Shown piece by piece: positions 1,850-64,000 of a stretch of DNA of 64,000 bases. The position numbers and the translations under genes are program-made. Numbering within the stretch: position 1 is the first letter of the stretch; the number at the start of each line of letters is the position of its first letter. The notes beneath the pieces are model-generated. The model was not told the DNA's origin. It saw only the letters and a program-made list of their open reading frames with translations, and made no database searches. Source of the stretch: Carposina sasakii (Eukaryota > Arthropoda > Insecta > Lepidoptera > Carposinidae); the NCBI GenBank assembly GCA_014607495.2, contig CP053168.1, forward strand, positions 1,178,001-1,242,000, read 5' to 3'.

Positions 1850-2490
1850 TCTTCAATGTTGCAGGTTGTTGCATGTAGCATGTTGCAGCAACAGCAAGGT
1901 CATGGCTTGTGGTTGCGTTTACAAACGAATTGAACGTCGTAATAGTAATCACAAGCCTACCTCACTGTTATTATATGCGACAACTATAAGAAACAAAAAC
2001 TTGTATGAATCTCCACGATGTTTGCTTCTTTAACTTCTTCAAACTTGTCAGTTTCTTTATATTCCATGTTGCGAGTGTTGCAGATGGTTGCTTGCTGAAC
2101 GTTGCTGCAACAGCAAAGTCGTGGCTTGTGGTTGCGTTTACAAACGATGAAGAACGTTGTAATCGTAATCACAGGCCTACCTCATTGTTATCGTGTTTTT
2201 TCTTCATATCAAGTGCAAAACGTTAATTTATATGCGTCAACAGCCAAATATACTAGCTGTACCGTCTACAAGAAACGAAAAATAGTAATGAACATCCACA
2301 ATGTTTGCTTCTTCAACGTTTCTTTCTTCAAACGTGTCAGTCAATTTTTTTCATATTCCATGTTGCCAGTGTTGCAGATGGATGCATGCTGCACGTTGCT
2401 GCAACAGCAAAGTGGTGGCTTGTGGTAGCGTTTACAAACGATGAAAAACGTCGTAATCGCAACCACAAGCCTACTTCACTGTCATTCGTC
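1850..2490. repeat. Degenerate tandem triplication, about 220-290-bp units
   Basis: Three related blocks share GTTGCAGCAACAGCAA or GTTGCTGCAACAGCAA, then TGGCTTGTGG, GCGTTTACAAACGA and AATCACA(A/G)GCCTACC. TGGCTTGTGG begins at 1903, 2122 and 2416, giving spacings of 219 and 294 bp. ORFs here read the repeat in different frames and show no protein family, so I treat them as non-coding. Confidence 0.7.
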
Positions 2491-3139
2491 TTCAAGTTAT
2501 TGGATAACACATAAAAGTACATAGTTATAAAACATGCCAATGAATAGTTGGTAGAAACTAATTAGAATGACCATAATCTGCGAATAATTAATAAAAAAAA
2601 ATAATAATATTGGCAAAGGGAACATAAAAATAGCTTTCGCTTTTAGCAGCAATACATTTATTGCTACCTGTCAAAAACAAATAAAAAATTGAAAACAACC
2701 TTCAACAGGTCTTATTGCAGAAGCCTTAGCTTTTAAAAGTATGTACCTACGTAAAGCTATCTTTAAACGAATTTAACACATTATACCTATATATCTATCT
2801 ACATAGTCGTAGAATTATTAACTGACTATAGTATGGCCTCTTCGATACACATAATTCGTTTTATTTCACTTGTAAAGAATCATGTCGTGCACACATGACA
2901 TATCCCAGAATGTAAAGGGCATGATATTTCCAGCGTGCCCTTTATGTCTCTTGAGTGAATTGAATTTAGTTATTGAGTTGAGCTCACATTTTCGCTCAAA
3001 GAAGGTAATTCTGTGCTACTTGTTCTACATGCTACATATAAAATCCTAAAGATATAAATATCACTTATGGTAATTAGTATGTTCGAGTCGACTAAGAAAC
3101 CTATTCTCTCAAGTGAGCTAGCAACTTGTCACTAAGCTC
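2491..3139. other. AT-rich intergenic DNA, nothing recognised
   Basis: No ORF with family resemblance, no tRNA and no clear terminal repeats. One short imperfect inverted repeat near 2900-2945 surrounds AAAGGGCATGATAT / CGTGCCCTTTATG. Confidence 0.5.
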
Positions 3140-3225
3140 TTTCTAAACGTCGCTGTGAGATCTCTATTATGATTCTGCAGTTCTGGCTAACCCATTGCGA
3201 GAACACAGCCGTGTGTTTATACCTT
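3140..3225 (+). repeat. Repeat E 3' fragment
   Basis: TGATTCTGCAGTTCTGGCTA followed by AACACAGCCGTGTG. This is the 3' end of a very frequent repeat (E). Its fuller form (CAGCTGCATCTCCTTCCGTG ... GTCGACTAAGGAACTC ... GCTAGCAACTTGTCACTGAT ... CTGCAGTTCTGGCTACCCCA) appears at 38810-39000, 43600-43800, 47460-47875 and 52555-52760. Confidence 0.65.
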
Positions 3226-3470
3226 GTCTTCAGCCTATTGCAGTTCACTGCTGGACGTAGGCCTCCCCCAGGGTATGCCACAAGGCTACTGCCACATGGG
3301 GTTTTGCCCATAGTCACCACGCTGGGCAGGCGGGTTGGTGACCGCAGTGTGATTTTCGGACTATGTTGTCAGCACGGGAGGCGCTACTGCCCACCTCTCG
3401 GAAACCCTTAATCGCCTCGTACGATACCCACGGGCAGGGGTACAAACTCTATTCTGCCGGCACCACGGCG
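3226..3470 (+). repeat. Repeat C (RTE-tailed SINE-like unit)
   Basis: Contains TATTGCAGTTCACTGCTGGACG, CGGGTTGGTGACCGCAGTGTG, a GGGAGGCGCT(A/G)CTGCCCACC block and GCCGGCACCACG. The same unit recurs at 14045-14255 (-), 20130-20415 (-), 20895-21145 (+), 25690-25860 (+), 27885-28060 (-, internally deleted) and 56290-56470 (+, diverged). In the minus-strand sense it ends with the GTCCAGCAGTGGACTGCAAT motif and (GATG)n seen in RTE. Confidence 0.75.
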
Positions 3471-3640
3471 GTATGTATATGTATGTATGTATATAAGTAG
3501 AATCCTCTCTTAAAGCCCTACACTCCTTAAAGAATAATTCCAGCTTCCTACAGCCCACTAGTTTCGGCTGTACGTTAATATCAGTCAATCAGTTTACCAA
3601 TAGATGACGAACGGATATTTCTTCCATCTTCTATATATGT

Positions 3641-4309: not shown

Positions 4310-4553
4310 CTATGTCTATCTATATGTCTGCATGTTTGTTCGCGTATCACGTAGAAGGACGACTGAATGAAATTTAATTAGGTTTTTACAATTTTACAGT
4401 AGGAGATTAAAAAGTGGTGTATGGTATGTTTTATCAAAATAAGTACATACGATTAGAAGCCGAAATTAATAAAAGTAAGTAAAATTTTTTTTGTAGAAAA
4501 AACCAGACAGCTATTCTGTAGTCCACGCGGACAGAGTCGCGGGCAACAGCTAG
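4310..4553 (+). mobile_element. Helitron, probable
   Basis: Ends with GTCCACGCGGACAGAGTCGC, GGGCAACAGCTAG and then T. The body contains the TCTATGTCTATCTATATGTC and GTTTGTTCGCGTATC text common in such elements. The 5' end is not certain. Confidence 0.55.
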
Positions 4554-4921
4554 TGTCTACGAGTAATATGTATAAAGAAATAAGTACAGATCAGAGTAGT
4601 ACATTTATTAAAAAAAAAACAGAGAGTTATCTATTTATGTACCTAAACTCCAGTATTGCAATAGGCTGTAAGTCTGCTGTATTTACTCGCCAAGATTAAT
4701 AAGGGCATATATCTAGTTAAAACTAAGAAGTTAATACCCCTTTTACCCTTAAGCATTACAAATTGAGTGCTTAAATAATAAATTACTAGTAAGGGGGCGC
4801 ACCAGGGCGCACATTGGCCAAGTTGTGGCAATGCCTACTGAATAATTAACTTTAAGGGTTTCCCGAAAAGGCTGATTTTCCTTCTCTGTAATTTATTTTA
4901 CCTATCAGTAATACCAAATGC

Positions 4922-5200
4922 TATTCTATTCTATGCTGCTCTGGGAGTGAAAAAAAAAACGTATAATACTACAGCTGCTTCTCTTCTCGGGCATACTGTA
5001 TAAGTCAGTAAAGGGACAAGAGGGTCTTGGTGTTTTGTAGGCGATGGGCTGACCACCTGTCACTACTAACCGAACTTGTACATCTCAACTATACCCTCAA
5101 AATTGGTCAGAAGTGGCACCATGTGGTTCTGTCGGCCCTTGATGCTCTGCCTACCTCATAAGGGATAAAGGCGTGATTATATGTATGTATGTATGTAATA
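4922..5200 (+). repeat. Repeat D with TATG tail
   Basis: GCGATGGGCTGACCACCTGT, CTAACCGAACTTGTACATCT, AAGGGATAAAGG and a tail of (TATG)n. The same repeat is at 8390-8465 (-), 40375-40640 (-) and 47507-47686 (+). The last copy has a target duplication around it. Confidence 0.75.
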
Positions 5201-6247
5201 CCAAATTGATATATTTCAACTTCTTTATGTGGTTGTATCTAATGTTTAATTACAAGTACAGGAAGGGTAGAAATTTCTATAACTAACTTAAAATTTTCAT
5301 ATGTTTTTTAATTTCTTTAGTTGTTGCTAAATATTTTCTACGAATAAGTTTACCCTTGACGGCACTTAGATGATAGATGAAAGTACTTGTTATTGACAAA
5401 GAAGTTATTTTGTAATTCATGATATTGATGTTTAAATTACTACTAATTAACTAATAATGGGGGCTGACCTGACTGATCTCTTCTTCACATCTATTTGAGT
5501 ACCATGGTACGATATCTATTTTACAATATTCCTAATTCTTCTAATATTCAATAAGTATGTTAGAACCATTGTAATTAGCTATATAAATTTTGGACAAATA
5601 AAATTTTTAATAGCCTAAACTTTCTAAAAAATCTCGGCAGAGGAAGTATGAGATGAATGAGAATGAAGAACGAATGATTAGATCTATAATACTCACTCTG
5701 CTAGCTGTGTAAAGTATAAAATGAACAGTACAACAAAGGCGCATGTTGGCCGATAGATTTCCATCCTCCGTCTGTAACAATAGAAAAAAAAAATATTATG
5801 GATAAATTCAAGATCAATCTAATGATAAAGCTACATTTCTACTATGTTACGTCGCTATCGATGCGTTTGGTATGTGATGGGATGAACCCACGTTAGGCGC
5901 CAATGTAACGCTGTTCTCTGACCCCCTCTTCCCCTTTTAAAGGGGTGGATAAGTTAATGATGGTAATAGGAAATATTAAAAATAACTAAGAGTTTGAAAT
6001 AAAAATGAATATGAGACTATTTAATAAACGCGATCCCCCTGGTCACCGGTGACAGACCCAGGTTTCTTCGAGACTTCGTTTCTTTATTAATTACCTCATG
6101 TTAGACTAATAATATAATAAGCTAGACCTATATATCTATATATCATACAATAACACTAAACCAAGAATTAAGAGAAGGTAAGGTGAGAAAATTAAACTAC
6201 TAATTAACTGGCTTCTAAAGGAAATCAGTGAAGACGAAGAATAGAGG
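5201..6247. other. AT-rich intergenic DNA, nothing recognised
   Basis: No ORF of note. A TCCCCTTTTAAAGGGG palindrome lies near 5929-5945. Confidence 0.5.
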
Positions 6248-9613: not shown

Positions 9614-9786
9614 GCCGCCCCCTGATTACCTAATTTGCAATAACAAAGCCGAAGCCAAGCGATAGCGAAAATTGTACATTATTCGCTTTGAAATGTCAAA
9701 GTTCCTTTGAAATTCATTTTACGTAACACGAATTTGACAAGCAATCAGCGATTTTTGCTTTTGCTAGTTAGGTAATAAGGGGGCCG
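9614..9786. mobile_element. Palindromic MITE carrying the Transib insertion at its edge
   Basis: The left end CGCCCCCTGATTACCTAA is matched inverted by the right end TTAGGTAATAAGGGGGCCG. The interior (AATAACAAAGCCGAAGCC) resembles the hairpin element at 28140-28325. The last five bases (GGCCG, 9782-9786) are the left copy of the Transib target duplication. Confidence 0.55.
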
Positions 9787-10120
9787 CACAGTGGTTCCAA
9801 TGTATGGGAGGTGCTGGACATTCGCATCCAAAAAATAAAATTGGTGAATCTTGAGAAACTAATTATGCCATCTTGTTTGGTAGATCAATGTCTTTGAAAG
9901 TTATTATTTAAAGTTTTTTTGTAACTGTTATATTTGAGGAGATAATTGAGAAATAGTATCTTCTTACTATGGAAATGGTCAAACTTACTTACATATCTCT
10001 TGATTCCGGCCTCGTTTCAAGTTGCGGTCTTCGGTATTGTGTTTATATTTGAGAGAACTACAATTAATGCTAACACACATAGTGCGCCAAACGTGCACTT
10101 TCTGCGGTACATAGAGATGT
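9787..10120. repeat. Transib left TIR (334 bp)
   Basis: Matches the reverse complement of 13045-13378 without gaps. Differences seen are ATCTTC versus GTTTTC just after GAAATAGT (two positions) and one base in the last ten. Both arms contain an ORF starting MRNS(I/V)FLLWKW; this is a by-product of the repeat and not a gene. Confidence 0.9.
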
Positions 10121-10450
10121 CTATTTTTATATACGAAAAAGTTCCATACTGAACACTACAATGAAAGTGATCTTGTAATTTTGATTTTTGACATGTCCAA
10201 AATGTAGGTCAAATGGTTTGAGAACTAAATTACACTAAAATTGTTAGTGGTAGTATTTATTTAATAAAATTCAAAAAATACGAAAAGCACAACATGCATT
10301 ATAAATCTATAAAATAGTACAGATAAATTTAACTAAAAATGTCTATAAACACAGAGAGAAAGACCCTAGTTACACGAATGAGATCTTTTTATTAAACTGT
10401 AATAAAAAATTTATTTATTTATATTTATTTTAATTAAAATTTTAATTTAT

Positions 10451-12646
10451 TTATGAATCGTCTTCACAATCATCATCGATCAATTCTGATGCGGAGTCTA
10501 TTTCGATTAACTCGTTTATATCGACAAAATTAAATTTACCTGTCTCGGATATAATCAGTTCATAAAATTCTGAGAAACAAGATTTTTTAATAAATTTGTT
10601 ATACATTGGGCGAATACTTGTAAGAACCGGATCAGAAGATAATAAAAGATTGTGTAGTACATCTTCATTACACGAGACACTGCTATGTTTTCTTGAATGT
10701 CCTTCGCGGTACTTTCTAAATTCTTTATTTCGTGCCTCCGAGGCTTCTTCGGACAAAAAGCCGATAGGCATCATTGAAAAGTTCTCAATGACATCTGGCC
10801 CATGGACCAGCAATTTGTGGAGACTAGACGGCATATAAAACCATGGATATAATTCCACGTAGAGCAAAGTAGTGTCATTACAGAACATACGAAATTTGTC
10901 AATGTCGAGTTTCTCTCCTGAAGATATACACTGTAAAATGACAGCTAGCCTTCTTAAAAGTCTCGCATCTAATCCGGTTAATTCAGCAGATTTTTCTGGG
11001 TTTTCAAAAAACCTTCTAGCACAATTACCGGTGTTGGTGGTTCCACTCCCTTGCTTGACAACATCAAGACGCATTCCAGTTTCTTTTTTGAAGTTTTCTT
11101 GAATTGCTGATTTTCTTTCAGCAACATTCTTCTTTGCTTCATCACCTCTAGCTTGCCATGATTTTATGTCTAATCTGTATGCGATGTGAAGACAACACTC
11201 CATGGTCCGGATCCATGCATGGAGCGAGCTAAGTCCGTATTTAAACATGTCTTCGTGCACTGGCTTGCTTCTTACTTTACTAATGTCGTTCATCTCATTT
11301 GGACGCGCTTTGCAAATGTCGCACACTGATGCTGCTGTGCCTGATATGTATGAGTGAATCTTACCATCTATCATCGTCAAATGCAACTGGTGCTTTACAC
11401 TTACGTCATCGCTCTTAGTAGGTTGCAGAAGCTTAATCTCTTCTTCGAATTCAGACATCTCCATTTGAACATTTTCTTTTGTTTCTTTGATGAACTTGAT
11501 TAGGATTGGTCGACAAAGAGATGTTGACGAGGGCCGCTCATTTTCCCAAATTATTTGGCCAGTTTCGGATGTGAGCCGGATTGGTACAAGACTTGCAACA
11601 AATACACTGGCAAAATTCGTTTCCTCAGTTTCACTTGTTTTCTGGTGGTAAACACTTTGATCCGAAGCACCGTCAAAGCCCCATTTGCTCACGAGCACCA
11701 GGTTTTTCTCCTCAGTGGTAGAGAGGTTTTGGGTTTGTAGAAGTCTTGTCGTAGTAAGGTCTAGCAACGCTTGCAATTTGATTTTAGCAGAGTGTTCAGT
11801 AATTGTAACGTCTTCTTGTTTTGGGTAACATTTCTTTTTTTCTTTCAGAAGCATGTAATAACTGGGATATTGAGCTACTCCTTCTTTAGCATGAAAATCC
11901 CGTAAAGTCATATAACGCCATTTTGAAAGGTTCATCGACACAAACAAAGCTAGGGCCTTTAGTGGAGATATACATTTATCTGAATCTGTGGTACTCCGTC
12001 CGCCAATGAAATCTTTGATCTTAGAAGCTTCTGTAGGATTTTCCATTAAAAACTTCATAATATCAGCTACATCATTTTCCCCTGCAGCCCTAAGACTGCT
12101 TTGTGCAGAAAACATAATCTCGTCAGTGCTGCTAGATGCCCTAAGTACTTCAGTGCGTCTTTTCTTTTGACGAGGACTTAAATCTTCAAAGGGCTTACGA
12201 GGAGAGACATGAGTACACGTAGAGGCATCGGATTTAGAAGGTAAATTCGTCTGCTCAGTAGTTTCTTCTTCTATTGCGTTCGTAGGTAATACTTGTAAAG
12301 GCAAATTATTTTCCTTTAGGGAATCCGGCCACTGGACTTCAGACTGCAACCACTCTGAGTGTTTATTTAGAAACTTTCCTTCGCTTCTTCCAGCTTGAGA
12401 CCATTTAGGATAGATCCGGTAGCAAAATCGACGACACCAGTTCTTTAAGTCTTCTTCGGCACCTTCACAAAGAGAAACGTTGCAATTCGTTTTAAGGACA
12501 CCGAATAGATGATCAAAGTCACGTAGATCATTGTGTTTGCGTAAAGCGCAATAAAGGTCAAGATTTGTAACAAATCCACGGAAAGACATATTTATTAGAA
12601 CGAAATAGAAATCAAAATTGATGTAAAATAAAGGATTACCAACCAA
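10451..12646 (-). CDS. RAG1/Transib-superfamily transposase
   Basis: 731 codons without a break, with a second in-frame ATG at codon 20 (MSFRGF) that may be the real start because the first 19 residues look like leader sequence. The family cuts DNA next to a CACAGTG heptamer by an RNase H-fold transposase. Visible landmarks compared with the RAG1 core from general knowledge: KWGFDG with D325 at the place of RAG1 D600; a C442-x-x-C445 pair and H610...H615 that match the spacing of the RAG1 zinc ligands; and SEEASEARNKEFR, where E634 (or E637) aligns with RAG1 E962. At the place of D708 the protein reads SLHAWIRTME, so no aspartate is there. The N-terminal third is divergent, with a basic PRQKKRR stretch near residue 160. 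The acidic C-terminus ends DDDCEDDS. It lies alone between the TIRs and is probably transcribed from the right TIR. Confidence 0.88.
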   Translation of the reverse strand: MVGNPLFYINFDFYFVLINMSFRGFVTNLDLYCALRKHNDLRDFDHLFGVLKTNCNVSLCEGAEEDLKNWCRRFCYRIYPKWSQAGRSEGKFLNKHSEWLQSEVQWPDSLKENNLPLQVLPTNAIEEETTEQTNLPSKSDASTCTHVSPRKPFEDLSPRQKKRRTEVLRASSSTDEIMFSAQSSLRAAGENDVADIMKFLMENPTEASKIKDFIGGRSTTDSDKCISPLKALALFVSMNLSKWRYMTLRDFHAKEGVAQYPSYYMLLKEKKKCYPKQEDVTITEHSAKIKLQALLDLTTTRLLQTQNLSTTEEKNLVLVSKWGFDGASDQSVYHQKTSETEETNFASVFVASLVPIRLTSETGQIIWENERPSSTSLCRPILIKFIKETKENVQMEMSEFEEEIKLLQPTKSDDVSVKHQLHLTMIDGKIHSYISGTAASVCDICKARPNEMNDISKVRSKPVHEDMFKYGLSSLHAWIRTMECCLHIAYRLDIKSWQARGDEAKKNVAERKSAIQENFKKETGMRLDVVKQGSGTTNTGNCARRFFENPEKSAELTGLDARLLRRLAVILQCISSGEKLDIDKFRMFCNDTTLLYVELYPWFYMPSSLHKLLVHGPDVIENFSMMPIGFLSEEASEARNKEFRKYREGHSRKHSSVSCNEDVLHNLLLSSDPVLTSIRPMYNKFIKKSCFSEFYELIISETGKFNFVDINELIEIDSASELIDDDCEDDS

Positions 12647-13044
12647 TTTATACTACACTACCCTCATTACTGCGTACTGCGTACAATTGTTATTCTTGTA
12701 ATGTTTTAGTACTAATGATTTCAATTAATAATCACCTGCATCAAATAATTGTTGAAAATGCTAAAAATTACTCTAAGAATGACATCTGTAATTGATAGAA
12801 ATGCTAATGACTACTGTCTTAATGATAATGCAATAATTTCATTAATTAATTATTTAAAAGTCTAAGACCGTCTGTGGATCGATCGTTGCCCTCGTTTGCA
12901 AATTAATTAATTTAATTATTATTTTTTTATTTCTGCAACATCATTTATCGATACGCATATTTAGAGGGGCCCTTATTCCTCTATGATTTTAACAGAAAAT
13001 TGTAAGATCCTTGTCATTGTAGTATATTATAATATAAAAATCAA
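12647..13044. other. Non-coding interior of the transposon, probable promoter side
   Basis: AT-rich and without ORFs. It lies upstream of the minus-strand transposase ORF and inside the right TIR, so promoter elements are expected here. None can be named from sequence alone. The matching 10121-10450 interval on the other side is also AT-rich and holds several AATAAA motifs on the minus strand just after the stop. Confidence 0.5.
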
Positions 13045-13378
13045 ACATTTCTATGTACCGCAGAAAGTGCACGTTTGGCGCACTATGTGTGTTAGCATTA
13101 ATTGTAGTTCTCTCAAATATAAACACAATACCGAAGACCGCAACTTGAAACGAGGCCGGAATCAAGAGATATGTAAGTAAGTTTGACCATTTCCATAGTA
13201 AGAAAACACTATTTCTCAATTATCTCCTCAAATATAACAGTTACAAAAAAACTTTAAATAATAACTTTCAAAGACATTGATCTACCAAACAAGATGGCAT
13301 AATTAGTTTCTCAAGATTCACCAATTTTATTTTTTGGATGCGAATGTCCAGCACCTCCCATACATTGGAACCACTGTG
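13045..13378. repeat. Transib right TIR (334 bp)
   Basis: Inverted copy of 9787-10120 ending in CACTGTG, followed by the GGCCG target duplication at 13379-13383. Confidence 0.9.
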
Positions 13379-13410
13379 GGCCGGGCTGATGATGATGAAT
13401 ATATAATATA

Positions 13411-31920: not shown

Positions 31921-32918
31921 ATACTATAGGACATATTATATAATTCTCGCTTTACGATCAAAAGCATTTTCTATTTTCTTCGGTGATCAATTCCTATAAG
32001 ATGAATACCTCTTACCTACATAATATCATAAATATAAAATTCCTAAGAAGACTTGTGCTACCTAACAATTCTCCCCGGATGTCTCTATAGCTGCATCCTG
32101 GCTATTGTAGTCGCCTCCTTGATGGAATACTCTTTGTGCTTCCGTCAAAGGAAGCTCATATCATGCCAGTTCATATACGAACTAGTTTGTACATAATGTA
32201 TGCAGGTGTATTTCTGTCCATCTGTGTTCCCCAATCAATGGTCAAACTTAAAAAAAAAACTAGGGATTCGGCAGGAAAAGCTGGAAGGGAGTAGGTGTAA
32301 TTTTCTTGATAAAATCAAAATTTATTTGTAAATGGCTTGCATGTGTCCGTAAAGTGATGTTTTCTGGTAGATAAGTTATATTTTGATTACTTGTGATCTG
32401 AATCTTGTGCGTGTGCTAGGTATGCGTTTTATATGCAGGTAGGCTGAGTAAAACTTGAATCGGAATACGATTTCTTCATGGGCTCATGTAAGTTGTTTCT
32501 GCAATTCATTTTGATTTTTACTAACTTTACACTCGTTCTTGAGGATTTTCCTGACGTTTCCATCCATCATCATCATCATTATCATCCATAATAAATTCAG
32601 AAATCATTCACAAAAGACAATGGCTGTATGGGTAATAGTTCCCTTTGCCTAAACAGAAAACTGTAGATACACCAGTTGTTGCTTGCGACTCCGTCCGCGT
32701 AAACTACAGAATGTGGCTTATGCAGCCTAGGTATGTCCTTTTTCGCACTCCCAGCTATGTATCTATGCATTTCAACAAGATAAGTAGAGTACCTAGATAA
32801 AGCATGAAGAGGTACCTAACAAACAAACAAACTTTTGCATCTATTCAGTTAATATAATACAGATAATTAAACAGGAAAGCGGAAAGAATAGATATAGTTA
32901 TTTCTTAAATTGACAATA
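31921..32918. other. Intergenic DNA with one Helitron end remnant
   Basis: At about 32680-32712, GCGACTCCGTCCGCGTAAAC is the reverse complement of the Helitron 3' hairpin. Otherwise nothing was recognised. Confidence 0.45.
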
Positions 32919-39700: not shown

Positions 39701-42700
39701 CCACATGAGAGATCAGTGACAAGTTGCTTGATCATCCCCTGAAAGAATGCTCATGCCTGATCTCCTTAGTCGACTCTTACAACATACATGGAAGGAGATG
39801 CAGCTGATGTACCTACTCGTATGTACCCATTGTCGTAAAGATGATAATATTGATGATCCGCAAGTGATAAAGAAATACATAAATAAATGTTACGTTCTAT
39901 GTAATGTAATCTAAGATGTAATTTTTTTATAAATACCCTCAGAGAAAAAACCCGACTGTGTAAAAATTTTGACCCAGCCAATGTCACGCTCATGACTAAA
40001 ACGAATCTAATGACACCTCTCAAGCTAAAATGCGTCAAGCCTTTTGTACCAAAAATATGATACAAATATACACTCGAAAAACACAACACTCCCTCTGACG
40101 CAGTCGGGTAAAAAAGGTTTGCATCACAGTAGTTGTAAGGGGTGATACAGTTTACATAATGCTCACTTAGGTACATATATAAATAATTCATTTTACATGG
40201 CAGTAAGATTTTTCCTTCGTGATCCTGCACTTCTGGCCACCCCATTTTAGGCACACCGCCGAATGTGTGTATACCATCATTCATTCATCATCATTATCGG
40301 TCATGAGAAGTCCACTGCTGGACATAGGCCCCCCAAAAACCTTCACCTACCTACCTACTTACGTACCTATTATACATACATACATATAATCACGCCTTTA
40401 TCCCTTACGGGGTAGACAGAGCACCAAGGGCCGATAGAACCACATGGTGCCATTTATGACCAATTTTGAGGATATAGTTGAGATGTACAAGTTCGGTTAG
40501 TAGTGACAGGTGGTCAGCCCATCGCCTACAAAACATCAAGACCCTCTTGTCCCTCTACTGACTTGTACAGTATATGCCCGGGAAGAGAAGCAGCTGTAGT
40601 ATTATACTTTTTTTTTCACTCCTAGAGCAGCATAGAAGATGTACCTATTATGTTGGTACATAATATAGTTTCACGAAGTCTCCACTCTGATGACATATTT
40701 AGGTTAAATAACATAATACCCTGTAAGGAAGTCTTACTCATTGATAACGAAGGGTATTCAATGAGGGTATAAAGGAACAAAGGAAGGACCCAAACCAACC
40801 CTTACGCTGACCCAGTTTTACTTGAATTCAATTTAAATTATCCTGCGTATTATATCTTAATCAATATTAATATTATACAATGAAGATTAAGAGTACATCT
40901 CGTTTAGATTTAATACAGAAATCTGATTAGATTGTTTTTATTGTTTTATCCACGCGATCGGCGTGGGTTAATTTCCATACGAAACCAACATAGTAAACAA
41001 CTTGCCTATATTTACTGTACTTACCCACTCACTATTTATAAATACTACATAGTACATGCATTTAAAATAAATATATAAAAAAAACCTTAATAAAAAATGC
41101 ACACAAATTGAATAAAAGACATCAACGCGCGGCATTAATTTCATTAATTAGCATTGAGACAGGTTGAAAGAATCGTATATTATAATAAGCTAATGTCCGT
41201 AAATTATAGCGCATATATTATTCTGAAATATAGGTGAACTATATACATTTTTCCATGTAGTGATGCGGGTGTTCACTAGAATACATCAGCTGCATCTCCT
41301 TCTGTGCATGTCGTAAAATCAGGGGCGTTTTCTCGGCCTGATTTTTCTATGCTATGCTATGCTGTTATGTTTAACATGGCAACAGGATCGCTACTCTGGA
41401 TACTCTATTTTTAAGAAAACATATGTATTTATACGCCAAGTTTCATGAAAACAGATAGATCAATGGGTACCATTTACCACAGGCAGGTTAGGTGAACTTC
41501 AGGTCCGTAAAGTATTCGTCCCCCAACACCTCTCTAGTTTGAACTCTATTTATAACCTAAGGTTATTGATGTGGGATGGACGTAACTACGGCGTAAGGGT
41601 ATTTATTTTCGTAGTATTCTTCCCTCGGGATATTTAGCGTTTCGCAAGTCATAATGAAATTGATACGGGATACATAGACAGGGAGATAGCTACCGCTTTT
41701 GCCAGCAATATTGATTCAGTATATATTATCTGCACAGACAAAATAATACTTAATTAAATAATACTATTCTAGTAAAGACGAAGGTATTCAACCAGTGCGT
41801 GCTGCCGGTGATGACCTACGGTGCCGAGACGTGGTCTCTAACTATGTGCTTCATAAAAAAGCCCAGGATCGCACAGCGAGCGATGGAGAGAGCTATGCTC
41901 AGGATCTCTCTACGTGATCGAATCAGAAATGAGGAGATCCGTAGACGTACAAAGATCACCGACATAGTATTTTTTTCGTATGTAAAGAAAACTAAATAGT
42001 CAATCAGGGCAAACAGTCAGTATGGTGTTCTAATACACTGCATAATAAATAATTGTAAGTTTACTTGTCCGATACGTATATGTTGATGTAGGAGAATGTA
42101 CAATCTATGCGGTTACCATTCCACCCAGAAGGGTTTTTTATACCGAAAATAACAATCTATCGTATAATTTAACTTTAAAAAGTTGGCGAAGATACCAATC
42201 GTATTTTCTCCTACATTGTACGTAAGTAATACTGAACCAGCGTTCTTGCGATTGTTTAACAAAAGCACAGCCATCTCCTAGTGTATAATGTGTAGGTTAT
42301 AATTAGATCTACCTCGGACGACGGGTGTCTCCAAACTTAGTTAGTAGACAAATTGTGTTTAGTAGAGGATAGCTGAGCATGCTGTACAGGGTGTATAGAA
42401 AGGAGTAAGTCAGGAAAATTAGCCCAAATACGAAAATAGGTATGGTCTGAGAAATCGGATTTTTTAAAGTATCTGGACAGGTTTTTGTGTCTCTATTGTG
42501 GTGGGGATTCCACACATACGTTTTTATAGTCAGTAGTGCCTCTCCCAAAAAAACACCTAAATAAGCACTTAGCCGTAATTTACTACTACAGCGGGGAAAT
42601 GACGTCATCTCAACGTTGTCTATCTAACCAAAATAACACGGTTTCCTAGAGAGCGGTGTAACATCATCCACCGCTGTATTACGACCGCTATCATAAGAAA

Positions 42701-48700: not shown

Positions 48701-51700
48701 CACTTGAATTTCGGAATGAGCATCTTTTCTTCTGTTGATTTCACTGACAACTTTCATCATCAATTTGTTATTGTAATTAAGGATAACTACATATTAATAG
48801 TGGGCGTAAGTTGGATCTCTGTCACGGGTCTGTACCAATGAATTAATTTTCATGTGAGTACGCTTAGCTCGTGCCTCGGAAAGCACGTAAAATGGTTGGT
48901 CCTTCGCCTGATCTCTACCCAGCCGTGACGGCTTTCAGTCCCATCAGACTATGAGAGTGACAGAATAGAGAGTGCAGTTGTGTTTGCGCACACACTTGAG
49001 CACTATAATATCTTCTGCGCACCTGGCTAATCTCCGTAGAGATTGGCCGCCTTGATCGAAATGCGGTCGGAGACCTTATACAGGGTGATTTTTGGTCGTC
49101 AACGTTTCCGAAAACTACGGAATCTCCTCATCATCACGATCATTTTTCTCCATGGAAGCATACCTGGGAAGTGTCTGGTTTCCAAAATATTAGGGTCCAA
49201 AGTTGAGTAAATAGACTGCGTTTTTCTGCATAAATGCACATAGACGCGCGTAGCAGGATTTTTTCACGAAAAATAATTAATATCTGTCTATAAAAAAACT
49301 AACATAAACACTAGACACTATAAATTTCGCACGATCAAGGAATTTAAAATAAAAAAAAATAAAAAAAATCCCAGCATTTTTTTTGGCATAAACTTACTTT
49401 ATTTCATGTATAGAATACGTACCCTTCGTTAAAGGTGGCCACAAAAAAACATCCTGTATTTAGGTACATATTATTGGAGGATTTCATCACCATCACCAGT
49501 AGGAGTGTAAATTTAGCACCATACCACCACGTACCTAATTTTAATTTTTCTAAACACTGCAACTTTCTTTAAGGTATTCTAAAAGGCTATTCTAAACGTA
49601 ACTGTAAGATCTCTATAGTAATCCAACAGTTCTGCCATCATATTACGTACCTAGCGAGAGCTATGCGATAGCGAATATTGTACAAAATTCGCTGATTGCT
49701 TAGGTATAAAAAGTATTGAGTACCTACGTAACGTAACAGAAATCTTAAACGAATATGACATTTCGTTCGCTGACGCCTTGGTACTGTTTTACTTTTGCAA
49801 GATACATAGAGAAGAATAACTATAGAGGATACTATAAAAACACATATAATCATCAGACATGTGTGTATCGGTCACCAACCATGGCAGTCTTGTGGTGTAC
49901 CCTGGGGGAGGCCTACGTCCAGCAGTGGACTGCAATAAGCTGATGATGATGTGTGTATGGACCCAATTATCTATCAATAACTATAGGTAATCGCGCGAAC
50001 GGATGAACGAAGTTAATTATGTAGAGAAGAAGTGCTTAGGTATTTTTTTACACAAAGTACTTAGTCAAGAATACATAATAATTTATTTATTTATTTCTTT
50101 ACTCTCTAATTTGCTTTATTTTTGTTTTCAGGTATATCACTGATAATCACACCCGCCTCCGCCCAGCATCCAGCTCGCCACCCTGGTAGGTATGCATCAC
50201 ATCTTTTACCAACACTTTCTGCTATTCCTCCTACTGCAACAGATCCAAACCAAGAGCTTTTGTTCCAGGTCTCATGCAGAGTTCGGCTGACTGGACCAAC
50301 CCACAGATCCAATCGAGGAACCCACCCTGGCACCAGTTCTCAAGTCCAAGAAAAAGATCCCCGGAAATTCAGGAGCAGTACCACAATGCGCCGCAGTTTA
50401 ACCAGCCTTATAGTTATAATCAGAACCCGTTACTGATGCAAGACAGTTCTGCTAAATACGAGCGAACCCAACAGAGTTACCAGCCATCACTGTACACTTC
50501 GGGTGCAGTACCCTACTACGATGGCAGATCCTCAGTAGATTTAGTAAATACAGAGAATCGGTATATACCCAACGATGGAAGGCTTCTTTCCGATTCTGCA
50601 TTCACGAGAATTTCCGAAACTCTAGGTGCAATCAATACTGTAGGACACTATTTAGTAGATATAGTTAATGAGAATGAGAGAAACGAATCTAATCCAAATT
50701 TGAAGCAGTTACCGCAAGCTTTGTATACGTTGAGCAAGAATGTGCTGGGCAGAAATGTTACTGACAAAATTGCTCCTATAGTCAAAAAAGCTTTACCAAA
50801 AGTACTACCTGACGCACCAATTACAAGAATAGCAACAGGAGATTCGACTCCAGAAGACGTCAAAACATGCACCACACCCGAAGGAGAAGATGGTGTATGC
50901 GAAGACCTGAGTAATTGTCCACAGCTATTGTTAAACTTGATAAACCTACGAGAGTCTCTCTGTTTCAAAGATCTTTTTGTGCCAGGGGTTTGTTGCCCTA
51001 AATATGCTGTAGTGGCTTCTACGCCAGCGGAAAAGCCAGTAATAGCAACGACAAGTAAACCGACGTATTTGTTACCTGTAACAACAAAGAGGCCGGTGCC
51101 AAAACCTCTGACAACAACGAAGAAGCCGTCCGCTATCCAGGTGCTTACAACTAAGCGTCCCAAGCCAACGATAACTACTGTTAGGACAACGACCACTACC
51201 AGAGCACCCACAACTGTAATCACCACACCACGACCGCAGCCGACGTCGACGTTCTTCACTGTTGCTCCACCTGTTATCAACAACTTCTCTAACGTCGTCG
51301 ATATAAATGGTAAGCAAGCAGAACCAACTTTTATTTAGTAGCCAACAGTGTAAAAAATTACCCAATTATCTCGACCAGGCGAAAGCACTATATCGTTCTC
51401 CCAGAGTGCTGCTAAGAGTGACATCTTTCCTACTCTTAACCTTTTGGTAATATCAATAATAGAATTCGCCCAGTATTATTCTTCATTATATGTATAGTAC
51501 CATCTTATCGAAGTTTTAAGCATTCACTATGGGTGCGCCCACCACCGGGCCCTACACCCTCCACACGAAGTTTAAAGATCAGCTCGCAAAATCCCTCGCA
51601 TTTTTTATATTTTTTCCGACTTATTGGTTACCATCATCATATTTCAGAATGTGGCCAAAGAGAGGACGAAGGAGGTCGCGTTGTGGGAGGCTCAGAGTCC

Positions 51701-53614
51701 AAGTCGGGAGACTGGCCGTGGATGGCAGCGATATACCTGCACGGCAGCAAGAGACGGGAGTTCTGGTGCGGCGGCACTCTGGTGGGGAAGAGGCATGTCC
51801 TGACTGCGGCTCATTGCACACGAGATTCTAAGCAGAGGCCGTAAGTAAAGAGGTTACAGAAATCTCTTGGTTACAAGGTTATTCTTGCTATCGAATAGAA
51901 CTGATAATGGAATCGATACATGTGATTCGGAATCAATAAGATTATGCGATGCCAATATAGCGCCATCGCCAGTGTAATCATCATCATATTCTATCATACC
52001 AATCGTCGCCACCACCTCTAACCCTCATATTATCGACTCAAACTTCACACTCAATGCTCCTGTGAATGAAAACGTAATAAGTAGGTACTAACATCTCTCG
52101 TAACATAACATACATCGGAGGGTGTAGGGACCGGTGGTGGGCGAACCCTTGATAGAAACTAACATTTCTGACCCGAGTTGCATCTCTCATCCGAGTGGCT
52201 TCAAGGGAAAAGTTACCACATTAAACACGAGCTAGATAGATCTTATCTATTTTTAAGCATATGCCTACTTACCTCTTTTCAGTTTCCCTGCCCGCCAGTT
52301 CAGCGTACGCCTGGGTGACGTAGACCTGTCACGAGATGACGAGCCTTCCCGCCCTGTCACCATGAGGGTGGCGGCCGTCAGAGCGCACGACCAGTTCTCC
52401 AGGGTCGGATACTACAATGATATTGCTGTGCTGCTCCTAGCTGGTAAGTTTATCAAGTTTAATATGACGGGTTTTCTACCTTAGATTGGATAGGTAGTAG
52501 GTACTGTCTTCTATATTTACCAGTGTATGAATTCAAATCTCATGAGCCTAGCGGGAAAGTATGCCCTAGGGGCTTCACATCTACTTCCGTGCATGTCAAC
52601 TAAGGAACTCAGGGGCGTTCTCGCAAGCGATGAGCTAGCAACTTGTCACTGATCCTTTACATCGGTCACTGCTATACTAAATGTGGCTCTAGGTTTTCTT
52701 TTAAGATCCTGCAGTTCTGCCTACCCCATTTTGGGAATGCAGCCGTGTGTATATCATGTATAGGTATGTCATGAGACCAAATCATAAAGAAAACGCACCA
52801 TTATCAAAACCTGGATTGTTTAACAACGGCGAGATACCTACTGTTCAAGTACTTATCATCTTTCAAAACTTCACAGACAACGTTCAAAAATCCAAATACG
52901 TGATACCAATCTGCTTGCCAAGCCATGACTTACTTCGGGCGACCTTCGAAGGCTCGGTAGCCACAGTGGTGGGCTGGGGCACCACCAGGTACGGCGGCAC
53001 CGAGAGCTCCACTCAACTGGAGGCAAAGCTGCCAGTGTGGAGGAATGAGGACTGCGACCGAGCGTACTTCCAGCCTATTACCGACTCTTTTCTATGTGCT
53101 GGGTATGCGAGAGGAGGGGTTGATGCTTGTCAGGTAAGAATAGAAGTTAAAACGGAACTAGCCTTTAGCTGATAAAATTATTGGGACAGCACCTTATTTT
53201 TACATAAGAACATATTAACATTTTACATAGCGGACGCCGCGTAGCAAAAAAGTATTTACTTATAAACGTACTTACTTATTAAGTAACTTATAAACTGACT
53301 ATTAAGTTTGATATTAAGTTTTATTATTCAATTTTCATCACAATTTGATCGATATTAAATAGGTAACTAAATCTTTAAAATTTTAAACTCATGTCATAGT
53401 CTCATGTACTGGAGGTTTAGAAACCTATCAAAACCAATTTTTTATTGACTGTTTTCAGGGGGACTCGGGTGGCCCATTGATGCTTCAAGTGAACGGCAGA
53501 TGGACCCAGATCGGTGTGGTGTCCTTCGGGAACAAGTGTGGGGAGCCAGGGTACCCTGGAGTATATACCCGGCTGACGCACTATCATGCCTGGATGCAGC
53601 AAAATTTAATCTAG
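36672..53614 (+). CDS. Clip-domain serine protease, 7 exons
   Basis: Spliced from 36672-36720, 50132-50185, 50269-51309, 51648-51840, 52283-52443, 52877-53133 and 53459-53614: 1911 nt, 636 residues, all junctions GT-AG and in phase. Residues 1-27 form a signal peptide (hydrophobic VVIVFGISLII, then PASA). A Gln/Ser/Pro-rich stretch follows, then a clip domain with six cysteines (C235, 245, 251, 266, 276, 277) and a Thr/Pro/Lys-rich linker of about 100 residues. The trypsin-type domain has activation site GGR392|VVGG and catalytic H437 (TAAHC), D492 (NDIAVLL) and S588 (GDSGGP). D582 sits in the S1 pocket, predicting cleavage after Arg/Lys. It is a secreted zymogen activated by another trypsin-like protease, as in insect immune or developmental cascades. 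The layout fits CLIPD proteases, but the substrate cannot be told from sequence. Confidence 0.9.
38530..38660. repeat. Fragment related to the LINE 3' region at 39930 and 46690
   Basis: AGATACCTCTCAAGATCAAA, TACGGCAAGCC and CCCGACATCGCCTGAAGGAG resemble parts of 39930-40110 and 46690-46830. Confidence 0.45.
38810..39000 (+). repeat. Repeat E
   Basis: TGATGCGGGGCTTCAATAGA, ATACATCAGCTGGATCTCCT, GTTGACTAAGGAACTCAGG, CTAGCAACTTCTCACTGAT and GATACTGCAGTTTTGGC. Nearly complete copy. The 121-residue frame here is read through the repeat. Confidence 0.75.
39690..39830 (-). repeat. Repeat E, minus strand
   Basis: GAGATCAGTGACAAGTTGCT, TTAGTCGACTCTTACAACAT and GGAAGGAGATGCAGCTGATG. Confidence 0.7.
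39930..40110 (+). repeat. LINE-derived 3' fragment
   Basis: ACCCGACTGTG ... TTGACCCAGCCAATGTCACG ... AATCTAATGACACCTCTCAA ... CACTCGAAAAACACAAC ... GACGCAGTCGGGTAAAAAAG. It matches the start of the LINE remnant at 46690. Its two ends share an inverted CCCGACTG / CAGTCGGG. Confidence 0.55.
40375..40640 (-). repeat. Repeat D, minus strand
   Basis: (CATA)n, CACGCCTTTATCCCTTACGG, AAGTTCGGTTAGTAGTGACA, GTGGTCAGCCCATCGCCTAC, ATGCCCGGGAAGAGAAGCAG. This is the most complete copy. It is preceded at 40300-40330 by a short CTGCTGGACATAGGCC remnant. Confidence 0.75.
41260..41340 (+). repeat. Repeat E fragment
   Basis: TGATGCGGGTGTTCACTAGA, ATACATCAGCTGCATCTCCT, GTGCATGTCGTAAAATCAGG. Confidence 0.65.
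41772..41970 (+). pseudogene. RTE-type reverse transcriptase fragment (downstream of the RT core)
   Basis: The plus-strand translation includes [18 protein letters not shown], then [19 protein letters not shown] and [12 protein letters not shown]. This is the highly conserved stretch after the RT core in RTE-clade LINEs, the region just upstream of the QWAGHIARR motif seen at 23210-23428. It is broken before that motif. Confidence 0.8.
43140..43355 (-). repeat. SINE-F, minus strand
   Basis: AATAAATAAATAAATATTCA, CACATTAACCTAGTGTCACA, GATCCCTAAGATCTTGTGTC, then TACCGGGATTCGAACCCAGG, the T-arm box. Confidence 0.75.
43600..43800 (+). repeat. Repeat E
   Basis: GTGAATACATTAGCTGCATC, TCTCAGGCGACATGCTAGCA, ACTTGTCACTGATCATTTAC, GATCCTGGAGTTCTGGCTAG. 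Nearly complete. Confidence 0.75.
44275..44425 (+). repeat. SINE-A 3' half with GATG tail
   Basis: GGGTTGGCGTCAGGCAGGCA, GCCGGCCGTAAAACAAA, ACCATATTGCGCAGACCCCA, AAGAAGATGATGATGAT. Confidence 0.75.
44740..44830 (-). repeat. Repeat E fragment, minus strand
   Basis: AGATCATAAAGGATTTC and GCAGTGACAAGTTGATAG. Confidence 0.5.
44866..45233 (-). mobile_element. ACAGGGTG repeat element, copy 5
   Basis: Minus-strand copy from ACAGGATGTTTTTTCGTCGC to GACGACCAAAAATCAC. Confidence 0.8.
45238..45395 (+). mobile_element. Short Helitron, internally deleted
   Basis: TCTATATAATAAAATTGTAA, CACGCTAATCTCAGAAACGG, then TTTATACCGGATCATTTCGA and GTCCACGCGGACGGAGTCGC, GGGCGTCCACTA. Compared with 993-1354, about 200 bp of interior are missing. 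It directly abuts copy 5 of the ACAGGGTG element. Confidence 0.7.
46490..46565 (-). repeat. Repeat E fragment, minus strand
   Basis: AATGGGGTAGCCTGGAGATC, TTAGTATAGCGGGGACAGAT, AGTGACAAGTTGAT. Confidence 0.6.
46690..47130 (+). pseudogene. Non-RTE LINE 3' remnant (CR1/Jockey-like C-terminus)
   Basis: The plus-strand translation reads [16 protein letters not shown], then VRTAKL, a TAG stop at 46921, then [20 protein letters not shown] and [10 protein letters not shown]. The motif with Trp before NSLP is typical of insect non-LTR elements of this group; here the tryptophan codon is TAG. Shared 3' text with 39930-40110. It is a dead fragment in the protease's first intron. Confidence 0.7.
47460..47875 (+). 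repeat. Repeat E, split by a repeat D insertion
   Basis: Left part 47470-47506 (GAGGCTTCACTAGAATGCAG), right part 47687-47860 (GAGTCGACTAAGGAATTCGG, GCGATGAGCTAGCAACTTGT, GATACTGCAGTTCTAGCTAC). The break is a D unit. Confidence 0.8.
47507..47686 (+). repeat. Repeat D inserted in repeat E
   Basis: Body GCGATGGGCTGACCACCTGT ... AAGGGATAAAGGTGTGATTT with (TATG)n tail. AATCTC flanks both sides (47501-47506 and 47687-47692). It has a small internal deletion relative to 4922-5200. Confidence 0.75.
48800..49075 (+). repeat. SINE-A head remnant plus another dispersed-type repeat
   Basis: GTAAGTTGGATCTCTGTCAC, GGGTCTGTACCAATGAAT is a diverged SINE-A head. The following GGTTGGTCCTTCGCCTGATC ... TGCGCACCTGGCTAATCTCC block looks like a dispersed element I have seen in moth DNA, but no second copy is in this window. 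Confidence 0.45.
49080..49457 (+). mobile_element. ACAGGGTG repeat element, copy 6
   Basis: Starts ACAGGGTGATTTTTGGTCGT and ends CACAAAAAAACATCCTGT. Nearly complete. Confidence 0.8.
49870..49950 (+). repeat. Repeat C / RTE tail fragment
   Basis: GGTCACCAACC, then GGGGGAGGCCTACGTCCAGC, AGTGGACTGCAATAAGCTGA and TGATGATG. Short 3' end only. Confidence 0.65.
50132..50185 (+). CDS. Clip protease exon 2 (rest of signal peptide)
   Basis: Acceptor TTTTCAG, donor GTAGGT. Encodes [18 protein letters not shown], completing the signal peptide. Reading on through the donor gives a 104-residue frame that is an artefact of the small intron 50186-50268. Confidence 0.8.
50269..51309 (+). CDS. Clip protease exon 3 (clip domain and linker)
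   Basis: Acceptor TTCCAG, donor GTAAGC, phase 1 at both ends. Encodes the Gln/Ser-rich region, the clip domain ([11 protein letters not shown] ... [12 protein letters not shown]) and the Thr/Pro linker. The frame continues past the donor to a stop at 51338, which is intronic. Confidence 0.9.
51648..51840 (+). CDS. Clip protease exon 4 (activation site, catalytic His)
   Basis: Acceptor TTTCAG, donor GTAAGT. Encodes ECGQ, the GGRVVGG cleavage site, GDWPWMAAI and TAAHC. Confidence 0.92.
52283..52443 (+). CDS. Clip protease exon 5 (catalytic Asp)
   Basis: Acceptor TTTTCAG, donor GTAAGT. Encodes [16 protein letters not shown], then [14 protein letters not shown]. Frame checked with both neighbours. 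Short, so it is easily missed by ORF-only annotation. Confidence 0.92.
52555..52760 (+). repeat. Repeat E inside protease intron 5
   Basis: GGGGCTTCACATCTACTTCC, GATGAGCTAGCAACTTGTCA, GATCCTGCAGTTCTGCCTAC, then GGGAATGCAGCCGTGTG. The 141-residue frame at 52747-53172 starts in this repeat and runs into exon 6. Confidence 0.75.
52877..53133 (+). CDS. Clip protease exon 6
   Basis: Acceptor CTTCACAG, donor GTAAGA. Encodes [19 protein letters not shown] and [15 protein letters not shown], including the S1 aspartate D582. Confidence 0.92.
53459..53614 (+). CDS. Clip protease exon 7 (catalytic Ser, stop)
   Basis: Acceptor GTTTTCAG. Encodes [30 protein letters not shown] and ends MQQNLI before TAG. 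Confidence 0.93.
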   Translation, partial: GDSGGPLMLQVNGRWTQIGVVSFGNKCGEPGYPGVYTRLTHYHAWMQQNLI

Positions 53615-61905: not shown

Positions 61906-64000
61906 TTAATCATCATCTAATATAATAATTTCATCTGAAGAAATCGGTTTGGGAGCCGCCCTAGTTTCACTCTCATGTGGTTTTCTGACATCAGTCTTCT
62001 TTCCTTGCACAGGTTTCGTTGAACCAGTCTTAGTTATAGTCAAAGATGGGGGTAGTCTGCTTATAGAATTGCTAATATCTGTAGCAGGTTTAGGCATGCT
62101 CTTCTGGCGTTCTGCTAGCTTCTCCTGCAATGTCTTCGCAGAGCTGTTAGACTGAGGTATTGTGGGTTTAGATGACCCCGATGCTTTTGACGTACTGTTT
62201 GACCCAGAGAAGCGCGATGCTGGCAAACTGTGAGTTGCTGAATGACCCGCGTATGATGACGTCAGGTTTGCGGTGAGTGATGCAGGCAATGTTGATAAAA
62301 CTGACCCCATAGATGCCGTCAGTGGGGTAGATAAAGACTTCTGTAGACTTGTTATGACAGGCGTAGGTGCAGCCTTTGCGGTGGAAGACCCAGAATTACT
62401 GCTAAAGGACTTTGAATTCTTCATTTGCGATGTCGCTGGCTGGTTAGATCTATTAACGTTTTGAGGTTTAGGACCGCGCTTTTTCTTAGGAGGAGGCAAA
62501 TTGAAAGCGGATGAGAAGCTCTGCCCCAGACATTGTCTGTAATATTCAGCTTGAAAAGAATTCTGGAATGTATTTTGTAATGATGATTGTATGGAATTTT
62601 GCAGGGACGTGTAGCCGGCTAAGGCGCTGACATGACTGTTAAGATAGGATAAAGATAAAGCCGCATTTGTTTGCTGAGTTAAAATCGGATCATTTAACAT
62701 CGGCAAATAACTTTGGAAAGCTGCTGCTATTTCAAGTGGCGTCATATTCATTATATTAGTCGACTTCGTTGCAGCCTCTCTAGGGTCAGGTTTCGGACCA
62801 GTGTGTGAAGCAGCCGATGGGTTAACTGTGGTAGAAACTGGAGGTGGCACAGGTTTAACACTTTCAGTAACCTTAGGCGCGTGTTTCTTTTGCATATTAT
62901 GAGTCTTGCCCAAACTTGCTTGTGTAGCTTGCTGCTTTAGCCTTTGTATCAGTGACTGGCAGTATTTCATGCTAAGGTCGACAAAATTGGTGTTTTCATT
63001 TGCAGGTGTAGTCATTACCAGTTTGTAAGCTTCGATCAGTAAATTTGTGAACTGCTTCGAGCTAGATTGTTTCTGTACTTTTTGATATGCTCTGTATATG
63101 TCCAACATTAGACTTTTAAGGGCTTCTTGTTCAATCTCGTTGCTCTTCAAATCCTCTTGTTGACTAAATTTCAGTAGCTGCCCTTTCAGAGATTGCACAC
63201 AAAGCGAGAACGCCTGTTGGGATAGTTCTTCTCTATCAGAATCTCGCAAGTATTTCTTGTCAGGTTCGGGAACCCTCTGTAAATGTAAGCTTAACTCGAG
63301 CAACGTTTTATGATCGTCAATCTCTTTCAGTATCTCCATAGTGAGCAGAACAGACCGATTCATGTGAAACGCAAAGCTGCCTGGCCTATCTACTTCTTGT
63401 GACGGTATTTTCCATATATTATTGAAGAAATTCGACGCCTTTCTCTCACTGAACAGGCCTCCTAGTTTTAACCCTGCTCTCGATACGAAAGTGGAAAGCA
63501 TAAGATCCCGACATCTCTCAATGTCTTTTCCCTTTTTATAGTAAAAGTGATAGTGGGCTATTCTGTAGATAGCTTTATAATGTGGGGGTATACGATTAGC
63601 GCAGTCTTCTAAAGCATCTAAACAGGCACCTATGATTTTCATAATTTCTTCTTCAGTTAATGGTTTGGCGTCATTAGATTTATTTGACGTGTCACTGTCT
63701 CTGCTGGAATCGGTAGTGCTGTCGGATGAAGAGTCACTGGTGCTTGAATCTGATGATGAAGAAGACGTGCTAGAGGTCTCTTCTTTCTTATCAGCTCGTA
63801 TTAAACCTGGGGGTTTAACTGCTTTATCGTCATTAGTAGGAATCAAACTTGCTTTTTCAACGTCAGAAACTTTATTTGTGTCATTGGAGAACGCTGGTTT
63901 ATCTCCTTTATCATTTTCAATTGTAGTAGTTGTAATATCTTTAGATATTGTTTTTTGGCTGTCAACGGTTACATTATCATCCGTGGTTAGTTGTTGTGTT
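61906..64000 (-). CDS. CABIN1: CABIN1-like protein, C-terminal part (runs off the window)
   Basis: The minus-strand frame is open from the window edge (64000) to the stop at 61906-61908: 697 complete codons, one uninterrupted exon. The start is outside, and no ATG need be sought at 63846, where the codon is TTG. A Ser/Asp-rich stretch is followed by a helical region with PPHYKAIYRIAHYHFY, then FFNNIWKIP, DRPGSFAFHMNRSV and DKKYLRDSDREEL. These match the C-terminal half of Cabin1, the calcineurin-binding protein related to yeast Hir3. In animals Cabin1 works with HIRA and UBN1 to deposit histone H3.3 in the nucleus. Further on are a Gln/Ser-rich stretch, a basic PPPKKKRGPKP motif (possible nuclear signal), long Ser/Thr/Pro-rich disorder and a final DEIIILDDD. 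The last motif looks like a SUMO-interacting motif. Confidence 0.88.
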   Translation of the reverse strand, partial: TQQLTTDDNVTVDSQKTISKDITTTTIENDKGDKPAFSNDTNKVSDVEKASLIPTNDDKAVKPPGLIRADKKEETSSTSSSSSDSSTSDSSSDSTTDSSRDSDTSNKSNDAKPLTEEEIMKIIGACLDALEDCANRIPPHYKAIYRIAHYHFYYKKGKDIERCRDLMLSTFVSRAGLKLGGLFSERKASNFFNNIWKIPSQEVDRPGSFAFHMNRSVLLTMEILKEIDDHKTLLELSLHLQRVPEPDKKYLRDSDREELSQQAFSLCVQSLKGQLLKFSQQEDLKSNEIEQEALKSLMLDIYRAYQKVQKQSSSKQFTNLLIEAYKLVMTTPANENTNFVDLSMKYCQSLIQRLKQQATQASLGKTHNMQKKHAPKVTESVKPVPPPVSTTVNPSAASHTGPKPDPREAATKSTNIMNMTPLEIAAAFQSYLPMLNDPILTQQTNAALSLSYLNSHVSALAGYTSLQNSIQSSLQNTFQNSFQAEYYRQCLGQSFSSAFNLPPPKKKRGPKPQNVNRSNQPATSQMKNSKSFSSNSGSSTAKAAPTPVITSLQKSLSTPLTASMGSVLSTLPASLTANLTSSYAGHSATHSLPASRFSGSNSTSKASGSSKPTIPQSNSSAKTLQEKLAERQKSMPKPATDISNSISRLPPSLTITKTGSTKPVQGKKTDVRKPHESETRAAPKPISSDEIIILDDD

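Follow-up and report, generated by a model that had tools for sequence, protein, structure and literature searches.

Positions 9787-13378 of a 64,000-nucleotide stretch of the Carposina sasakii genome (contig CP053168.1, positions 1,178,001 to 1,242,000; hereafter the window, in whose coordinates features are given) are best explained as a whole as a complete, autonomous cut-and-paste transposon of the Transib superfamily that has recently amplified, a reading to which we assign a probability of about 0.95. The Transib family is related to the enzyme that shuffles antibody genes. The outer ends of the element are formed by the heptamers CACAGTG (9787-9793) and CACTGTG (13372-13378). Its inverted arms are 98% complementary over 342 nt, and their outermost 120 bases, compared by eye in the window copy, are identical. 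The heptamers, the identical GGCCG flanks and the terminal inverted repeats had been claimed in an earlier reading of the letters (the sequence-only reading), and all were found in place. Only one open reading frame (ORF) of at least 130 aa lies within the element, on the minus strand.

This ORF encodes the transposase. The program-made ORF list gives it 731 codons from a TTG, the length that had been claimed. Homologues begin near the ATG at 12589, so a protein of 712 aa is likelier; the single long intact frame stands and the figure of 731 residues does not. Assignment to Transib, also claimed earlier, was supported by homology of the transposase to HzTransib of Helicoverpa zea, by the presence of the DDE triad and C2H2 zinc ligands in an alignment of 97 rows, and by the 5-bp duplications described below. 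Numbering of the HzTransib triad (D126, D225 and E436) follows PMC6941560. For the N-terminal domain (residues 1-95), Foldseek returned no match with E below 0.001 and no convincing fold match.

To characterize the family, we searched the assembly (399 Mb, 31 contigs). With the element as query, the best 40 of 175 candidates were scored and yielded 40 copies, each represented by a single near-complete match, and one partial piece adjoining the copy L018. The 712-aa ORF is intact in 36 of these 40, a fraction that is overstated because the copies were picked by score. A protein search, in which the best 63 of 495 candidates were scored, found places that are all 99-100% identical, and residues 1-712 are covered without a stop at 51 of the 63. 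Intact genes are common among the copies. When the first 174 bases of the element were used (best 40 of 288 scored), 24 of the 40 matches lay more than 6 kb from all 63 ORF-bearing places; on the assumption that each of these 24 represents a single copy, no fewer than 87 places carry all or part of the element. About 1.5 kb read at ten of the 24 matches the element at 98-100%. No miniature inverted-repeat transposable elements were shown among these ten, since nine continue ~1.4 kb or more into the element and the other, L080, ends at element position 777. In viral contigs, four stretches matched the search pattern and none was a relative. Among the 40 copies a single right end is altered (L019), and L040 carries a short AT-rich insertion within one repeat arm (~4395-4478 of that locus).

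Target duplications accompany the copies. Identical flanking 5-mers were found by script at 33 of the 40 aligned copies, and also at L018, L019, L039 and L040 once their true outer ends were read by eye. L016 and L024, ~18 kb apart with matching flanks, were counted once; of the resulting 39 insertions, 36 have identical 5-mers by script and eye, and in the remaining three (L030, L033 and L034) the two 5-mers are set apart by one base change or a shift of 1 bp. The protein search gave 23 further copies, and 12 of the 19 with ends read show identical 5-mers at the predicted places, the other seven having one end only within the 81 bases read. The duplications are not chance, and the copies with the same ends and 5-bp duplications that the sequence-only reading had proposed to look for are thus present. 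We also compared the joined flanks of 37 loci (L018, L039 and L040 left out) with the fetched loci and the window. For four independent insertions, a contiguous match with a single 5-mer was found in a paralogous repeat: L016/L024 (89% over 104 bases, with one mismatch in the 5-mer), L019 (99% over 327 bases), L026 (90% over 252 and 254 bases, at window 40373-40615 and 4950-5193) and L033 (87% over 536 bases). The two window stretches belong to a dispersed repeat, ~90% like the L026 target site, which is present in L015 and L021 as well; a further repeat, at window 32264-32608, is common to L023 (several places) and the L033 target site. In L039, ~785 bp (4464-5247 of that locus) are inserted in one repeat arm of the Transib copy, and 327 bases of this insert match the L019 target region at 99%, so that it looks like another recently mobile repeat.

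Target choice is not uniform. In the set of 40 target rows, where the inner L018 site was read from one side, the pattern YRNYR (Y, pyrimidine; R, purine; N, any base) fits 30, compared to 5,069 of 79,680 flank positions, and 11 of 12 further sites from the protein-search copies fit as well. CG stands at positions 1-2 or 4-5 in 37 of the 40 rows, target GC is 74%, and the symmetric consensus is CGNCG. Drosophila hopper and transib2 are reported to prefer CCANTGG (PMC3276498), a different word from the YRNYR, mostly CGNCG, found here, and one in which, likewise, YR steps flank a free middle base. These patterns suggest that the enzyme may read flexibility more than word.

One locus is informative on how the ends may be used. 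L018 is a nested pair: a full copy sits, inverted, in the CGCCA at element position 2215 of another copy, and of this other copy 2215-3592 alone remains. The resulting unit of 4,970 bp terminates in a right end on either side and is bordered on the outside by TTCCG at each end. The simplest reading is that both copies transposed together by means of two right ends, although one case is not proof. A later deletion inside the nested pair would yield a similar arrangement and draws on the nested insertion itself, which is seen directly in the inner 5-mer. However, the outer TTCCG abuts precisely on the heptamer of the inserted copy and recurs at the opposite outer end, and a deletion would need to end at exactly that base; we regard it as unlikely. 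No Transib example of composite transposition was met in the portions of the literature searched, which is not proof of absence.

Variants shared among copies gather in the repeat arms. Among 37 copies, shared variants occur at 15 arm sites (684 bp) compared to 3 interior sites (2,908 bp). Shared minor alleles in the arms number 16, and 15 of them reappear, complemented, at the mirror position in the opposite arm, as against none of 21 arm singletons; these 15 mirrored alleles stem from 7 mirror pairs and cannot count as independent. Conversion from arm to arm, probably during repair, would keep the repeats alike and would account for the mirrored alleles as well as for the 98% identity of the arms. 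Polymorphism passed down from two source copies may also play a part.

Consistent with the present or recent activity for which the sequence-only reading had called the element a good candidate, 38 copies differ from the majority base by a mean of 2.53 interior substitutions (0.00087 per site), with several copies at zero. At a butterfly rate near 3e-9 per site per generation, this corresponds to a mean of a few hundred thousand generations. Dozens of near-identical copies in the same genome point to recent movement, and the interior variants of 37 copies are almost all private (88 singletons, 3 shared sites): the amplification is recent and star-like, with at least 63 ORF-bearing places. An old resident Transib, its copies kept alike and intact by selection or genome-wide gene conversion with no recent burst, would accord with the exchange between arms and with the window protein being the commonest, encoded exactly by 10 of 40 copies. 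This we find very improbable, because the interior variants are so seldom shared and because unique coding changes in the 40 copies (14 synonymous, 49 nonsynonymous, 4 stops) fit the expectation without selection (16.1, 48.0 and 2.9). Their youth explains why the genes are intact. Spread by segmental duplication or assembly error, as the matching flanks of L016 and L024 might suggest, is hardly credible given the different flanks and 5-mers of the other copies and the four insertions with unoccupied paralogous sites.

Several points weigh against a complete, recently amplified Transib. First, the Pfam RAG1 profile (PF12940), a match to which had been proposed as a check, scored 21.9 bits, below its curated cut-off of 25. 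Second, seven of the 63 protein places have one stop and five more are partial. Third, of the ten further copies sampled, six have frameshifts within the third of the gene that was read and a seventh, L080, is truncated, leaving three without a break in the stretch read. Fourth, the window's own insertion has no unoccupied site among the fetched loci and the window. Lastly, the analysis met no transcript, protein or transposition event.

We propose that the 712-aa DDE transposase would bind the 342-bp inverted repeats, nick at the CACAGTG heptamers and then form hairpins on the flanks, by analogy with HzTransib and RAG. The excised element would enter a flexible 5-bp target (YRNYR, mostly CGNCG), which becomes duplicated; exchange between arms, probably during repair, would keep them alike, and two right ends may be enough for transposition, as the sequence patterns suggest. 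A fuller picture, of a currently mobile full-length Transib with a RAG1-type nonamer-binding domain (NBD) missing from the structural prototype, symmetric ends, flexible-YR targeting and arm conversion in gap repair, is tentative, with somewhat less than an even chance; if it holds, two right ends would suffice and no 12/23-like rule would apply.

Features of the Transib element in the window
Feature	Position	Strand	Basis
Left target-site duplication GGCCG	9782..9786	.	Same letters as 13379-13383
Right target-site duplication GGCCG	13379..13383	.	Read directly in window
Complete Transib transposon, 3,592 bp	9787..13378	transposase read on -	End points common to aligned copies
Left terminal inverted repeat, 342 bp, CACAGTG at start	9787..10128	+	Arm comparison
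Right terminal inverted repeat, 342 bp, CACTGTG at end	13037..13378	-	Arm comparison
Transposase gene, 712 aa, ATG at 12589, stop at 10451-10453	10451..12589	-	ORF list, homologue alignment, copies
N-terminal helical domain, residues 1-95	12305..12589	-	Common to full-length insect relatives
Segment resembling RAG1 NBD, residues 127-187	12029..12211	-	
Catalytic core, residues 204-683, counterpart of solved HzTransib chain	10541..11980	-	Homology
Catalytic Asp306 (HzTransib D126)	11672..11674	-	HzTransib alignment; 97/97 rows
Catalytic Asp408 (HzTransib D225)	11366..11368	-	HzTransib alignment; 97/97 rows
Catalytic Glu618 (HzTransib E436)	10736..10738	-	HzTransib alignment; 97/97 rows

Elsewhere in the window, ORFs with Pfam CLIP (50274-51338, plus strand) and trypsin (52747-53172, plus strand) domains are probably exons of a clip-domain serine protease. 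A 646-codon ORF (61906-63846, minus strand) has cabin-1-like relatives, the best match being from Iphiclides podalirius (65%), and no Pfam match; this ORF and the relatives of the transposase both point to a lepidopteran host.

The element represents a new, recently amplified family within the Transib superfamily and, as a transposon, is of a known kind. Its full-length insect relatives in the protein database include P0002 (66% identity) and Manduca sexta P0007 (56%); with the closest among the best 120 of 245 matches at 66%, that single search gave no high-identity member of the family elsewhere. HzTransib, at 3,518 bp near in size (PMC1852546), likewise has the Transib core, DDE and zinc residues, long inverted repeats and a 5-bp duplication. 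However, its published ORF is 489 aa and its solved chain (497 residues) can be aligned with our protein only from residue 204-206 onward, at 47% core identity, whereas the transposase described here has ~200 further N-terminal residues. Full-length insect Transib transposases match our protein over its whole length, these residues included. The 5-bp duplication is shared with Drosophila hopper, transib2 and Transib1, and fresh Transib bursts are already known from the invasion of D. melanogaster by Transib1 in 2013-2016 (PMC12230796). With RAG1 and ProtoRAG/RAGL the element has in common the core fold and the heptamer, and its residues 127-187 may be a counterpart of the NBD; an equivalent of the NBD has already been reported in Transibs (PMC9435367). 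Unlike them, it has no RAG2-like gene, 12/23 spacing or nonamer above chance: in the first 100 bases of each arm of the window copy, a V(D)J nonamer was not met at spacer 12 or 23, and the best nonamer-like match (6/9, spacer 34) was reached by 1,040 of 2,000 shuffles. A RAG-like (RAGL/ProtoRAG) transposon with RAG1-like and RAG2-like genes can be set aside almost entirely, as this chance-level nonamer, the single ORF and the far closer HzTransib all speak against it. What we describe is a natural, intact, full-length Transib whose N-terminal region, ends and target preference are documented over dozens of fresh insertions. Two questions can thereby be put to the test: does the NBD-like segment touch DNA where nonamers are lacking, and does a Transib do without the 12/23 asymmetry of V(D)J recombination, as the composite copy suggests?
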